DNA of 64,000 bases from Pseudomonadota bacterium (GTDB lineage Bacteria > Pseudomonadota > Gammaproteobacteria > Burkholderiales > Rhodocyclaceae), in NCBI GenBank assembly GCA_018262235.1, contig JAGTRY010000007.1:24327-88326 (forward strand), read 5' to 3'. The position numbers and the translations under genes are program-made. How positions within the stretch are numbered: the first letter of the stretch is position 1; each line of letters opens with the position of its first letter. The notes beneath the pieces were generated by a model. The model was not told the DNA's origin. It made no database searches and saw only the letters and a list, made by a program, of their open reading frames with translations. Below are positions 1 to 8,132 of this stretch, piece after piece.

Positions 1-319
1 CGCCCTGATACCAGCGGATGTTGCCGTAGGTCTTGCTGGCCGGATCCGTATCCTGCATGGGCGGCAGCGCTGCAAGCATGTTGCTGATCTGGCCTGGATC
101 CCCCTTGACGGCCACCGCGTCCAGCACCAGCCCCACGACATCGATGGAGGTCATGCGCTCACGCAATTGCCCCTGTGCAAACAGGCGGGCATAACGCGCT
201 TCGACCGCGGCACGCAACACCGGTTGCGCCACGAAATCGGCCTGCCCGCGCGTAACAGGCGCCTGTGCCAGAACGCTCCCGGTCAACAGCAACCAGCCCA
301 AAATCCACAGCCCACGCAT
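1..319 (-). CDS. Exported protein of unknown function, N-terminal part
   Basis: The first 106 codons of a minus-strand gene run off the left edge of the window, so its end is not visible. The ATG at 319 follows an AGAGGAG ribosome site at good spacing. The product opens with a hydrophobic segment and a likely signal peptidase site (LLLTGSVLAQA), so it is probably secreted to the periplasm or outer membrane. The remaining residues (for example DPASKTYGNIRWYQG) match no family I recognise with confidence. The gene diverges from the MFS gene across about 900 bp occupied by a tandem repeat array. It is absent from the ORF track because it has no stop inside the window. Confidence 0.7.
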   Translation of the reverse strand, partial: MRGLWILGWLLLTGSVLAQAPVTRGQADFVAQPVLRAAVEARYARLFAQGQLRERMTSIDVVGLVLDAVAVKGDPGQISNMLAALPPMQDTDPASKTYGNIRWYQG

Positions 320-450
320 GGCACGCTCCTCTTTTCCGCACAGAGTCGTTCACGGTAGCTGAAAACTGCAAAAGTCAACGAAAGCAGACCGATTTCATGA
401 AAATGACACATCTGTGCAATTTTTGAGCAACACACTTTTTTTCTTTTTGC

Positions 451-1164
451 TCAAGCACTTGTACCACTTTGCGGAAAATCATCCACAGGCTTCTCCACGT
501 TTTCTGTGGACAGACTGCGCGTGCACCGTATGGAGAGGAAAACTATCTGTCCTGAACGCTGCTTCGCGTCTTGACAGTTTCCCCCTGAAATGCCCCTGGC
601 TCATCCCGGCCGCCTCTGCGGGGGTTCTGCTCCATTTTTGCGCATCTGCGGGTTTTCCCTAGGCATCAGACACTTGCCTCACTTATCCGGCACTCATCCA
701 CAGGGTTCTCCACGCTTTCTGTGGACGCCGCCGGACTTGTGGAAAAATCCGGGCCGTTTTTTCCATCCAAAAGCCCTTTCACGGCTTGACAGAATTTCCC
801 GCGCATGCCGCGAAGACCCGCATCCATGGCCGATCTCCACAATGCTCACTTCTTGATCAAAGAGATTTTCTGCTACCCCGTCAAGCACTTGCCCCACTTA
901 TCCGGCACTCATCCACAGACTTCTCCACGCTTTGTGTGGATGAATGCAGCCTTGTGGAAAAATCCGGGCCGTTTTTTCCATCCAAAAGCCCTTTCATGGC
1001 TTGACAGATTTTCCTGCGCATGCCGCGAAGACCCGCATCCATGGCCGATCTCCGCATTGCTCACTTCTTGATCAGGGGAATTTTCCACTAGTCCGTCAAG
1101 CACTTGCCCTACTTATCCGGCACTCATCCACAGGCTTCTCCACGCTTTGTGTGGATGAATGCAT
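451..1164. repeat. 215-bp tandem repeat array carrying DnaA-box-like nonamers
   Basis: The segment beginning CACTTG recurs at 456, 671, 886 and 1101, exactly 215 bp apart. Units at 671 and 886 are nearly identical, the 456 unit is diverged and the 1101 unit is partial. Each unit contains TCATCCACA, one mismatch from the DnaA box TTATCCACA, at 479, 694, 909 and 1124. Two units contain TGTGGAAAA (738 and 953), whose complement TTTTCCACA fits TTWTNCACA exactly. Two units also carry an inverted TGTGGATGA (935 and 1150), forming CATCCACA...TGTGGATG dyads. The array fills the gap between divergent genes. It could be a DnaA titration locus, a replication-related element or simply a local duplication. 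Confidence 0.8.
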
Positions 1165-1229: not shown

Positions 1230-2390
1230 ATGTCGACCTCTGCTTCCCCGCCCCGTGCTGCCCGCCTTGCCACCCAGGCGCACTTCTTCGTCAACGGCAT
1301 GCTGTTTGCCACCTGGGGCGTACATGTCCCCACGGTCAGGCAGCAATTCGGCCTCAGCGAAGCCAGCCTTTCCTGGTTGATGCTGGCGGTCTGCATCGGT
1401 GCGCTGATTTCGCTCACCCAGGTCGGTGGCTGGGTCGCCCGTCACGGTGCGAGACAGGTCGTCCTCCTTGGCGGTTTGCTGATTGCATTGCCGCTCGCCT
1501 GGTTGCTGTGGGTTCCCGCTTATGCCATGTTGCTGGCAAGCCTGTTCCTGTTCGGTCTGGCCAGCGGCGCCTTCGATGTCGCCATGAATGCCGAGGCTGT
1601 CGCAGTCGAACAGGCATACGGGCGCCCCATCATGTCTTCCTTCCACGGTTTCTTCAGTCTGGGTGGGCTGACCGGTGCGCTGCTCGGCAGCCTGGCAGCC
1701 GCCACCCACACGGTCCCCTGGCTGCATCTGGGCGGCAGTGCCCTGATCGGCTTCGCGATGGTCTGGCTGGCCAGCCAACACATGCTGCCGCTGCCCGCCG
1801 CATCTGCCACGAATGAAGATCAAGCGGGCTTTCGCCTGCCACATGGCACCATCCTGCTGCTGGGTCTGCTCGCCGCACTGGGCCTGATCGGCGAAGGTGC
1901 GATGTATGACTGGAGTACGCTCTACATGGTCAAGGAACTCGACAGCCCACAACAGATTGCCGCGCTCGGTTATGGCGCGTTTTCCGGCGCGATGGCGGCA
2001 GGCCGCTTCGGGGGCGACTGGCTGCGTGGCAGGCTGGGGGCAGCACGCACCCTGAGCCTGTCGGCCTGGATTGCGGCAGTGGCCATGAGCGCCACGCTGG
2101 CTATCGGCCACCCGCTGGCGGCACTGCCCGGCTTCGCCCTGGTCGGCCTTGGCTTTTCGAACATGATCCCGGTACTCTTCTCCGCTGCGGCCAAGGTGCC
2201 AGGCGTCACCGCAGCCCATGGCATCGCCGGGGTTTCCGGCGTCGGTTATCTGGGCTTCATGCTCGGCCCACCGTTGATCGGCGCCATCGCGCATGCCACC
2301 CGCCTGTCCATCGCCTTGCTGGTCGTCGCGGTCTTTTCCGCGATAGCCGCCCTGCTGACCCACCGCGCCCTGCGTGCTGCCAGCCGTTGA
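1230..2390 (+). CDS. MFS transporter, YbjJ-like
   Basis: This 386-residue integral membrane protein has about twelve hydrophobic segments and belongs to the major facilitator superfamily. The opening FVNGMLFATWGVHVPTVRQQFG and the glycine-rich helices resemble the E. coli YbjJ/FucP-like branch; its substrate is not known. The ORF track begins at 1104 inside the tandem repeat. The ATG at 1230 (MSTSASPPRAAR) is preferred because the earlier codons are repeat sequence and family members begin near here. It lies 36 bp upstream of the spermidine-synthase-like gene on the same strand, so the two may be co-transcribed. Confidence 0.8.
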   Translation: MSTSASPPRAARLATQAHFFVNGMLFATWGVHVPTVRQQFGLSEASLSWLMLAVCIGALISLTQVGGWVARHGARQVVLLGGLLIALPLAWLLWVPAYAMLLASLFLFGLASGAFDVAMNAEAVAVEQAYGRPIMSSFHGFFSLGGLTGALLGSLAAATHTVPWLHLGGSALIGFAMVWLASQHMLPLPAASATNEDQAGFRLPHGTILLLGLLAALGLIGEGAMYDWSTLYMVKELDSPQQIAALGYGAFSGAMAAGRFGGDWLRGRLGAARTLSLSAWIAAVAMSATLAIGHPLAALPGFALVGLGFSNMIPVLFSAAAKVPGVTAAHGIAGVSGVGYLGFMLGPPLIGAIAHATRLSIALLVVAVFSAIAALLTHRALRAASR

Positions 2391-2426: not shown

Positions 2427-3197
2427 ATGAACCATTCCTCCATCGACATCAGCGAAGAAGCCGGCATCCGTTACCTGCATTTCGGTTCGGAATGGGTCCA
2501 GGGGGCGATGCGCATCCGCCGCCCCATTGATCTTGAACTCGAGTACACCCGCGAGATGATGTTCGGCCTGCTCTTGCGGGGTGGGTTCGGCGCCGATGCG
2601 AAGTGGCCCAAGCGCATCCTGCTGATCGGCCTGGGTGCGGGTTCGCTGACCAAGTTCTGCTACTGGAAGCTGCCACAGGCCCGCGTGACCACCGTGGAGA
2701 TCAGCGAGGCGGTATGGGCTGCAGCCAGTTTCCACTTCAAGCTGCCGGCGGAAGACGCGCGCCTGCGCATCGTGATCGAGGATGGCGTGGATTTCGTCAG
2801 CCAGCCCGGCCCCGGCTATGACTACATCCTGATCGATGGCTATGACGAAGACGCCAAGGTCGGGCTCCTCGACAGCCTGCCCTTCTACCAGGCCTGCTGG
2901 GCACGCCTGAACGAAGGCGGGGTGCTGGCGACCAATCTGTTTGGCCGCTCGCGCCAATACGGGCCACCGCTCAAGCGGCTTTCCGAAGCCTTTGAAGGCC
3001 GCACGCTGGCGCTGCCCCAATGTGCGAGCGGCAATGTCATCGCCCTGGCCACGCGTGGTACGGCCATCCAGGTGCCCCTGACTATGCTGCATACGCGTGC
3101 CGTCGCACTCAAATCAGCCACCGGGCTGGACCTGCGCAGCACGCTCAAACGCTTCACCAAGACGGGGACACTGAAAGACGAAATCCTGGTGTTGTAA
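2427..3197 (+). CDS. Spermidine-synthase-like protein (class I SAM-fold)
   Basis: The 256-residue protein has the Rossmann-like core of the SpeE family: ILLIGLGAGSLTKF near residues 60-75 (glycine-rich nucleotide loop), an acidic residue at the end of strand two (TTVEIS), IEDGVDFV, and YDYILIDGYDED in the catalytic region. The N-terminal beta domain is short, as in the many standalone paralogs of unknown specificity, so polyamine synthesis should not be assumed. The track starts at a TTG (2397); the ATG at 2427 (MNHSSIDISEE) fits family length better, although its ribosome site is weak. It may be in an operon with the MFS gene. Confidence 0.75.
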   Translation: MNHSSIDISEEAGIRYLHFGSEWVQGAMRIRRPIDLELEYTREMMFGLLLRGGFGADAKWPKRILLIGLGAGSLTKFCYWKLPQARVTTVEISEAVWAAASFHFKLPAEDARLRIVIEDGVDFVSQPGPGYDYILIDGYDEDAKVGLLDSLPFYQACWARLNEGGVLATNLFGRSRQYGPPLKRLSEAFEGRTLALPQCASGNVIALATRGTAIQVPLTMLHTRAVALKSATGLDLRSTLKRFTKTGTLKDEILVL

Positions 3198-6524: not shown

Positions 6525-7232
6525 CTAACGCATCACCTGGGTATAAACCGTCCGGTCGGCCTCGTAGCAGGAGCACGACACAGCCTCCAGGCCACCGCGA
6601 TCCAGGATCGTGATATCGCCGCGGCGATAGCTGATCAGCTTGTGATCCTGCAAGGAACTCGCCGCCTTGGTCACGCCGACCCGCCTGACCCCCAGCATGT
6701 AAGCCAGGAATTCCTGGGTGACGTGAAACGCGTTGGAATGGGCACGATCCTGGGTCATCAGAAGCCAGCGGGCCAGACGTGCCTCGACCACATGGAAACG
6801 CGTGCAGATGGAGGTTTGCGCCAGCTGGCAGATCTGCACATAGAGATAGTGCTTGAGTACGTCCTGCAAGGCCGGGTTACGCTCAAGCGCACGCATGAAC
6901 AGCGCGGCATCCATGCGCAATGCAGTCCCCGCGCCCTGCACCATGGCCTGTAGCGGTGAAATATCCACGCCCAGAATCAGCGCAACGCCGAACATGCCTT
7001 CGTCGCCAATCAATCCAACTTCCAGATGCGTCCCTTCATCAACCGATGCGAGCAAAGAAATGAAACTCGTCGTCGGAAAGTAAACATGGCGGATGCGTGT
7101 GCCGGGTTCGGCCAATATCTCTGCAAACTTGAGTTCTACAGACTCACAAGCCGCCAGAAAGCGCGGCCTGTCTTTGTGCGGCATGGCGCCGAGGAGTCGA
7201 TTGGTTCCAGCGCTGGGGCTAGGGAATGGCAC
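6525..7232 (-). CDS. Crp/Fnr-family transcription regulator (paralog 1)
   Basis: The 235-residue protein has an N-terminal cyclic-nucleotide-binding-like barrel (about residues 15-130) and a C-terminal winged helix, with recognition helix in VTQEFLAYMLGVRRVGVTKAASSLQ. The barrel lacks the canonical GE...RSA phosphate-binding cassette, so cAMP is unlikely to be the ligand. The C-terminal motif SCSCY is shared in CxCY form with the paralogs at 7413 and 45801. The track ORF begins at 7286, but the GTG at 7232 has an AGGAGA site six bases upstream and is the better start. A copy of the shared palindrome lies 105 bp upstream. The gene is tandem with paralog 2, in the same direction. Confidence 0.85.
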   Translation of the reverse strand: MPFPSPSAGTNRLLGAMPHKDRPRFLAACESVELKFAEILAEPGTRIRHVYFPTTSFISLLASVDEGTHLEVGLIGDEGMFGVALILGVDISPLQAMVQGAGTALRMDAALFMRALERNPALQDVLKHYLYVQICQLAQTSICTRFHVVEARLARWLLMTQDRAHSNAFHVTQEFLAYMLGVRRVGVTKAASSLQDHKLISYRRGDITILDRGGLEAVSCSCYEADRTVYTQVMR

Positions 7233-7337
7233 GCAGATTCTCCTGTCAGTGGGGATCTGCAAGCAGCACGTGCGGATGCAACGCACATTGCAGAGTGGGA
7301 CTCACAGGAAAGCATGGGGGCCACTGTGCGGCCTGTC

Positions 7338-7353
7338 TGCGCGCCAGCACACA
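7338..7353 (-). promoter_or_regulatory. Palindromic operator-like site facing crp-like paralog 1
   Basis: Read toward the gene the site is TGTGTGCTGGCGCGCAGAC, a match to the shared TGTnCGnnnGCGnACAGAC motif with one change in the proximal half. It sits 105 bp from the GTG start, nearly the same distance as the site before paralog 2. Confidence 0.5.
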
Positions 7354-7412
7354 CAAGGTACGAATCATCGAAGGGACGGCCAGGACTCCTGCCTGACAGC
7401 CGCGCGCCAGGC

Positions 7413-8132
7413 CTAGAGCTTGTGGAAATCCGGCAGCAGGCGATCAAACTCTTTCTTGACAACGCCATAGCACTCACAGGTCCGGGCTTCGAGCCCGGGC
7501 CGGTCCAGCACCGTGATGCGCCCGCGGTGGTACTCGATCAGGCCGGCTCGCTGCAGATTGCCTGCGGCTTCCGTCACCCCCTCGCGGCGAACCCCGAGCA
7601 TGTTGGCGATCAATTCCTGCGTCATGACCAGATCACTTGAACACAGCCGGTCCAGGCTGAGCAAGAGCCACCGGCACAACTGCTGATCAAGAGAATGATG
7701 CCTGTTGCATACTGCGGTTTGCGCCATCTGGGTCAGAAGCGCCTGGGTATAGCGCAACAGCAAACGCTGCATCGGCCCCGCACGATGGAACTCGTCCTTG
7801 AGCAACTGTGCCTTGACACGGTAAGCATGCCCCGCACTCTGCACCACAGCCCGGCTGGGCGTGGTATCTCCACCCATGAAGAGCGAGATGCCCACGACGC
7901 CTTCATTCCCGACGACGGCTATTTCTGCCGAGGATCCATCCTCCATGACATACAACAGCGACACGATGGTGTCAGTGGGGAAGTAGACGTGACGCATCTG
8001 GACGCCGGATTCATAGAGCACATCCTCCAGCGGCATCGTGACAAGTTCCATCATCGGCAGGATCCGCGCATATTCTTCAGGCGGCAGTGCGGCAAGCAGA
8101 TGATTCTGATGGGGCGAGTGATTTTCAGGCAT
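7413..8132 (-). CDS. Crp/Fnr-family transcription regulator (paralog 2)
   Basis: This 239-residue regulator combines a cNMP-binding-like N-domain with a winged-helix C-domain (LVMTQELIANMLGVRREGVTEAAGNLQ). It is strikingly similar to the third paralog at 45801 (shared GNEGVVGISLFMGGDTTPS, RYTQALLTQMAQTAVCNRHHS and CECYGVVKKEF) and more distantly to paralog 1. The ligand cassette is non-canonical. The conserved CxCY motif and a conserved AVCNRHH cysteine could support redox or metal sensing, which is inference. In the recognition helix the arginine and glutamate corresponding to CRP R180/E181 are kept. A near-perfect copy of the shared palindrome sits 103 bp upstream, suggesting autoregulation. 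Confidence 0.88.
   Translation of the reverse strand: MPENHSPHQNHLLAALPPEEYARILPMMELVTMPLEDVLYESGVQMRHVYFPTDTIVSLLYVMEDGSSAEIAVVGNEGVVGISLFMGGDTTPSRAVVQSAGHAYRVKAQLLKDEFHRAGPMQRLLLRYTQALLTQMAQTAVCNRHHSLDQQLCRWLLLSLDRLCSSDLVMTQELIANMLGVRREGVTEAAGNLQRAGLIEYHRGRITVLDRPGLEARTCECYGVVKKEFDRLLPDFHKL

Follow-up and report, generated by a model that had tools for sequence, protein, structure and literature searches.

A tandem array of four putative DARS-type DnaA-reactivation modules in Uliginosibacterium

At one end of the window (the whole 64,000-nucleotide stretch analysed here, positions 24327-88326 of contig C34 in the 3.96-Mb genome G000), DnaA-box-like nonamers recur in a tandem repeat, and the question that this locus raises is whether the boxes withhold DnaA, reactivate it or serve as an origin of replication. 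The initial annotation had offered a datA-like titration locus, a DARS-like element and an ectopic origin as possibilities. We compared the repeat with the E. coli DARS and datA loci, with related genomes and with sites elsewhere in the class, and conclude that it is probably a tandem array of four DARS-type DnaA-reactivation modules.

Layout of the array and geometry of its units

The four units lie at an exact spacing of 215 bp, as initially described, with TCATCCACA at 479, 694, 909 and 1124; TRF reported 2.3 copies of period 215 with a 90% match at 671-1163. The setting is a divergent intergenic region, between the start of a minus-strand gene at 319 and that of a plus-strand MFS gene near 1230. 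The true unit exceeds the box cluster, and unit 1 starts near 414 with a Fis-like site. The features of the locus are as follows.

1-319, minus strand: left neighbour, the 5′ end of the gene for a 764-aa secreted-type protein, which runs on beyond the window (flank only)
414-513, plus strand: unit 1, with Fis-like GTGCAATTTTTGAGC at 414-428, IHF-like GCTCAAGCACTTG at 449-461, box III at 479-487, box II at 491-499 and inverted box I TGTGGACAG at 505-513
629-728, plus strand: unit 2, with Fis-like GCTCCATTTTTGCGC (one mismatch) at 629-643, IHF-like CATCAGACACTTG at 664-676, box III at 694-702, box II at 706-714 and box I TGTGGACGC at 720-728
738-746, minus strand: additional DnaA-box-like TTTTCCACA, following the unit 2 core
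844-943, plus strand: unit 3, with Fis-like GCTCACTTCTTGATC at 844-858, IHF-like CGTCAAGCACTTG at 879-891, box III at 909-917, box II at 921-929 and box I TGTGGATGA at 935-943
953-961, minus strand: additional DnaA-box-like TTTTCCACA, following the unit 3 core
1059-1158, plus strand: unit 4, with Fis-like GCTCACTTCTTGATC at 1059-1073, IHF-like CGTCAAGCACTTG at 1094-1106, box III at 1124-1132, box II at 1136-1144 and box I TGTGGATGA at 1150-1158
1230-2390, plus strand: right neighbour, an MFS transporter gene (PF07690) whose start codon was read from the sequence (flank only)
2427-3197, plus strand: spermidine-synthase-like gene, found near the array more consistently than any other gene across the genus (flank only)

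In each unit, box III is followed after 3 bp by box II in the same direction and after a further 5 bp by box I in the opposite direction (9-3-9-5-9, reading TCATCCACA-NNN-TTCTCCACG-NNNNN-TGTGGNNNN), and boxes I and II thus oppose each other in the head-to-head manner defined as a feature of DARS (PMC8682772). The inverted TGTGGATGA pointed out initially is box I of units 3 and 4, at 935-943 and 1150-1158; compared with it, units 1 and 2 have a decayed box I (TGTGGACAG and TGTGGACGC, respectively). The exact box noted in two units is the minus-strand TTTTCCACA behind the cores of units 2 and 3. The estimate of about eight boxes in 700 bp stands, at least eight being found there, but they form four organised triplets and are not independent boxes.

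The core sequences taken from E. coli MG1655, TAATACACA-TGG-TTATCCACA-GGAAT-AGTGGATAA for DARS1 and TTCTTCACA-ACT-CTATCCACA-GAAAA-GGTGAATAA for DARS2, have the same 3-bp and 5-bp spacers as all four units of the array, and a scan of the MG1655 datA locus found no 9-3-9-5-9 triplet. Within the window, the four units were the sole sites of this geometry, even when eight mismatches were allowed, and at six mismatches or fewer these four real sites compare with 0.0 in 30 Markov-simulated windows. When all spacer pairs of 0-12 bp were scanned in the window, the pair (3,5) gave four sites and (9,5) gave two, with none for any other pair. The DARS-like option is hence strongly supported by the geometry, since both spacers and the head-to-head pair of boxes I and II equal those of E. 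coli DARS1 and DARS2.

The boxes themselves agree less evenly with the consensus. Relative to TTATCCACA, box III of the array has one mismatch, box II two and box I one to three, compared with two, one and two in E. coli DARS2. Box II is kept in its two-mismatch form, TTCTCCACG. As E. coli DARS2 depends critically on its boxes 1 and 2 (PMC4585315), a weak box II suggests that the activity of the array may be weak or conditional, and a box that is both weak and conserved could possibly reflect either titration or a modified DARS.

We also examined the sequence upstream of the core. A Fis consensus match, always centred at -61, is complete in units 1, 3 and 4 and has one mismatch in unit 2. Over 21 units from the genus, the conserved GnnCAnnnnnTGnnC (G..CA.....TG..C) at -68 to -54 equals the published Fis consensus GnnYAnnnnnTRnnC (PMC8682772), and the motif TCARNNNCTTR, conserved in the same 21 units at -31 to -21, equals the centre of the IHF consensus WATCAANNNNTTR. 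This IHF-like site, labelled -33, differs from WATCAANNNNTTR by two mismatches in the array. An IHF site near -101, sought because it is common in the class, was absent from the array. The array had no match in Rfam, even at E ≤ 1, so we do not regard it as an RNA element.

Like the array, E. coli DARS2 is non-coding and distant from oriC, and its IHF site lies between its core and its Fis site, the place that the IHF-like site takes in the array. It differs in being a single unit with matches to the IHF consensus at -90 and -74, 3 bp apart and in agreement with PMC4245941, and a Fis match at -121, whereas the units of the array stand in tandem and place Fis at -61 and the IHF-like site at -33; furthermore, box II is weaker in the array and the neighbouring genes are unrelated. 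E. coli DARS1 shares the core geometry and spacing of the array and is single, and our consensus scan found neither an IHF nor a Fis match near its core.

E. coli datA resembles the array as a non-coding cluster of DnaA boxes distant from oriC. In the review PMC5742627, clusters of DnaA boxes outside oriC in Bacillus subtilis and Streptomyces coelicolor are described as restraining initiation, and by that description these chromosomal datA-like clusters resemble the array. A datA-like function, in which the boxes would sequester DnaA from oriC or promote ATP hydrolysis and tandem copies would raise the capacity, is the strongest rival to the DARS reading. It would fit the density of the boxes (at least eight in 700 bp), a copy number of two to six that differs by species, the extra TTTTCCACA boxes in two units and a weak box II, which would favour binding over catalysis. 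However, DARS has this triplet geometry and datA lacks it. The essential boxes of datA have a common orientation and flank a single IHF site (PMC5742627), and what is conserved here is a head-to-head pair together with an upstream Fis site at a fixed position. As the layout argues against it, we consider the datA-like option unlikely.

Conservation and genomic setting in Uliginosibacterium

We then compared the locus across eight Uliginosibacterium genomes, six of which carry homologous arrays. The comparison of copy numbers, proposed across strains by the initial annotation and made here among relatives, gave two to six units per array: four in G000, four in U. aquaticum (G002), three in Uliginosibacterium sp. 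31-16 (G007), six in G003, two and one more truncated by an assembly gap in G005, and two in G001, with homologous units mostly about 170-217 bp apart. In the remaining two genomes, G004 and G006, the spermidine-synthase-like gene is present and the array absent. Since the units of one array share descent, the weight rests on the comparison between species. In the 21 units, strong conservation falls on the core, on the -61 Fis site and on the IHF-like columns at -31 to -21, whereas the spacers between the sites vary freely, and to a striking degree in G003, where they are AT-rich. Selection on the boxes, as initially suspected, is thus confirmed by their conservation in six species.

This pattern bears on whether the array is a relic or decaying DARS duplication with no present function. 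The absence of the array from two congeners, the weak box II and a box I that has decayed in the first two units would all fit a relic. Nevertheless, the core, Fis and -31 to -21 columns were kept across six species while the spacers diverged, which argues against a non-functional remnant and makes this explanation very unlikely.

The genes around the array are less constant than the array. Most arrays lie beside the spermidine-synthase-like gene, with other neighbours varying; in U. aquaticum this gene is about 3 kb from the array, and in G001 the two are on different contigs. The left gene occupies the same place in G007 and G002 and was unmatched near the arrays of G003, G005 and G001, and the MFS gene adjoins the array in G003 and is not directly adjacent to it in G007 or G002. 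If the units were DnaA- or Fis-dependent operators controlling divergent neighbours, their position between divergent genes, with the array ending about 65 bp upstream of the MFS start codon, would be well explained. Yet the neighbours change and the array stays, both for the MFS gene (G007, G002) and for the left gene (G003, G005, G001), the G001 array is on a contig other than that of the spermidine-synthase-like gene, and the geometry and distances fit DARS, so that we regard an operator array as distinctly unlikely. Further into the window, at 6525-8132 on the minus strand, lie two adjacent genes for Crp/Fnr-type regulators (PF13545), probably from an old duplication.

As for an ectopic or secondary origin, or a mobile or plasmid iteron origin, tandem repeats bearing DnaA boxes are the kind of structure that would suggest one. 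In U. aquaticum, however, GC skew, sampled along the array contigs of two relatives, is positive along the whole 1.67-Mb contig that carries the array, and in Uliginosibacterium sp. 31-16 it is negative from about 90 to 905 kb with the array inside, with no switch at the array in either; the array therefore sits mid-replichore in these two relatives, and the uniform skew argues that it is not an origin. No dnaA gene adjoins the array, as had been noted at the outset: in G000, dnaA and dnaN are on another contig, C58, and the search for oriC there found the dnaA-dnaN intergenic region to be rich in DnaA boxes; it is the probable oriC. The array is a single locus in the G000 genome, so that the initial concern that the repeat might be widespread does not apply, and neither the 72,556 plasmids nor the 50,697 phages searched contained a match to it, on which grounds a mobile or plasmid repeat was rejected. 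An origin of any of these kinds is hence extremely unlikely.

A single copy in G003 (contig C27) was considered as the oriC of that genome and rejected, with dnaA of G003 on contig C149 and no DARS triplet in the dnaA region of G000. Within the probable oriC of G000 (L019:4260-4919), a stretch of 216 bp is tandemly duplicated at a spacing of 411 bp with 81% identity, and takes in a DnaA box as well as the region where dnaN starts.

DARS-type sites and partner proteins in the genome, and sites across the class

G000 carries two single-copy triplets in addition to the array, one between hemE and priA (C124; L020:9675-9709) and one between xseA and exbB (C105; L236:1496-1530), both with strong boxes (TTATCCACA and TGTGGATAA) and an IHF site at about -101. 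Sites of both types are found repeatedly in the genus, and the majority have an IHF site at -100 to -103. They share the core geometry and the genomes of the array, and differ from it in having strong boxes, IHF near -101 and one unit each. With its weak but conserved box II, no IHF site at -101, Fis at -61 and an IHF-like site at -33, the array is by its sequence features a third, distinct class of DARS-type site in G000. In G006, a congener with no array at the usual place, contig C89 holds two DARS-type triplets 5.7 kb apart (L253:9693 and L253:15377). On contig C6 of U. aquaticum, a single-copy DARS-type site at 1,007,924 lies just 11 kb from the array (1,018,867-1,019,510).

DnaA, Hda and Fis, three of the proteins that such sites would need, are encoded in G000. 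Its DnaA is 53% identical to that of E. coli, with R399, P423, D433, H434, T435 and H439, which we take to be the box contacts, all identical. Also identical are D269 and L290, which E. coli DnaA needs at DARS1 and DARS2, respectively (PMC5742627). Hda passes its curated score cut-off, and the genome also encodes a Fis homologue.

Beyond the genus, a scan of genome contigs with a core-only pattern matched at least 116 stretches, and among the matches listed, columns outside the pattern were conserved as expected of DnaA boxes (TTA before box III and GATAA finishing box I). Among 84 dereplicated elements, with Uliginosibacterium left out, 21 had the published Fis consensus centred at -64 to -60, against 0.34 on average in controls, and 21 had an IHF site at -104 to -98, against 0.36; with stricter dereplication, the counts were 13 and 10 of 54 elements. 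The -33 IHF site was found in 6 of the 84 elements (Herbaspirillum and others) and in one of the strictly dereplicated 54, and is thus clade-limited.

We also looked for facing consensus boxes, TTATCCACA-N(0-20)-TGTGGATAA, in 140 genomes representing one per family of the class, and 67 of them matched. The matches listed comprise 75 distinct sites, 73 with the boxes 5 bp apart and two with 17 bp; as 17 bp is the distance from box III to box I and both of these sites contain the middle box, all 75 listed sites fit a DARS triplet. Facing consensus DnaA boxes thus occur, among the matches listed, almost only at the 5-bp spacing, and in about half of the families sampled. Triplets of DARS geometry with TTTTCCACA-type boxes were also seen in L077, L083, L090, L113, L117, L124 and L158, mostly MAGs of Acidobacteriota, and some of these non-Proteobacteria triplets carry the -61 palindrome; we treat them as a lead, since the core pattern itself imposes the geometry.

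Proposed function and its meaning

DnaA reactivation at DARS has been worked out in E. coli, where ADP-DnaA bound head-to-head on boxes I and II releases its ADP and the resulting apo-DnaA reloads ATP, DARS2 requiring IHF and Fis (PMC4245941, PMC5742627, PMC8682772). By analogy, ADP-DnaA would bind boxes III, II and I of each unit of the array, and the molecules on boxes II and I would meet head-to-head over the 5-bp gap, driving ADP release, after which the apo-DnaA so formed would reload ATP. Bending of the DNA at the Fis-like -61 and IHF-like -33 sites would couple the reaction to growth phase and to the cell cycle, in the way that IHF and Fis do at E. coli DARS2. Two single-copy DARS-type sites, with stronger boxes, are also found in the genome; the array would then be a third site, in multiplied form, and would supplement their capacity for reactivation. 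Binding of DnaA, Fis and IHF to the array, ADP release and an effect on initiation are what we infer from the sequence, and our confidence in the DARS reading is kept moderate chiefly by the weakness of box II, the decay of box I in the first two units and the two mismatches in the IHF match.

Published work describes conservation of the DARS2 core in those gamma-proteobacteria that are related to E. coli (PMC4245941, PMC8682772). In the open-licence literature, we found neither a tandem DARS nor a betaproteobacterial DARS reported, and nothing relevant on DARS outside the gamma-proteobacteria. Here, a tandem array of the same geometry occurs in a betaproteobacterium, and single-copy sites occur in every genome of the genus; this suggests that DARS-type timing control reaches well beyond the relatives of E. 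coli and can be multiplied in tandem. The search for inverted consensus boxes exactly 5 bp apart provides a sequence rule for finding DARS-type sites across the class, and the arrays together with the single-copy sites form a natural copy-number series (two to six units) on DARS dosage against initiation timing. As a tentative view, which we hold to be possible rather than probable, DARS-type control of DnaA may be class-wide, perhaps wider, with fixed IHF and Fis positions, and Uliginosibacterium may have evolved a tandem third form with a constitutively weak box II, in which copy number would tune the rate of ATP-DnaA regeneration.
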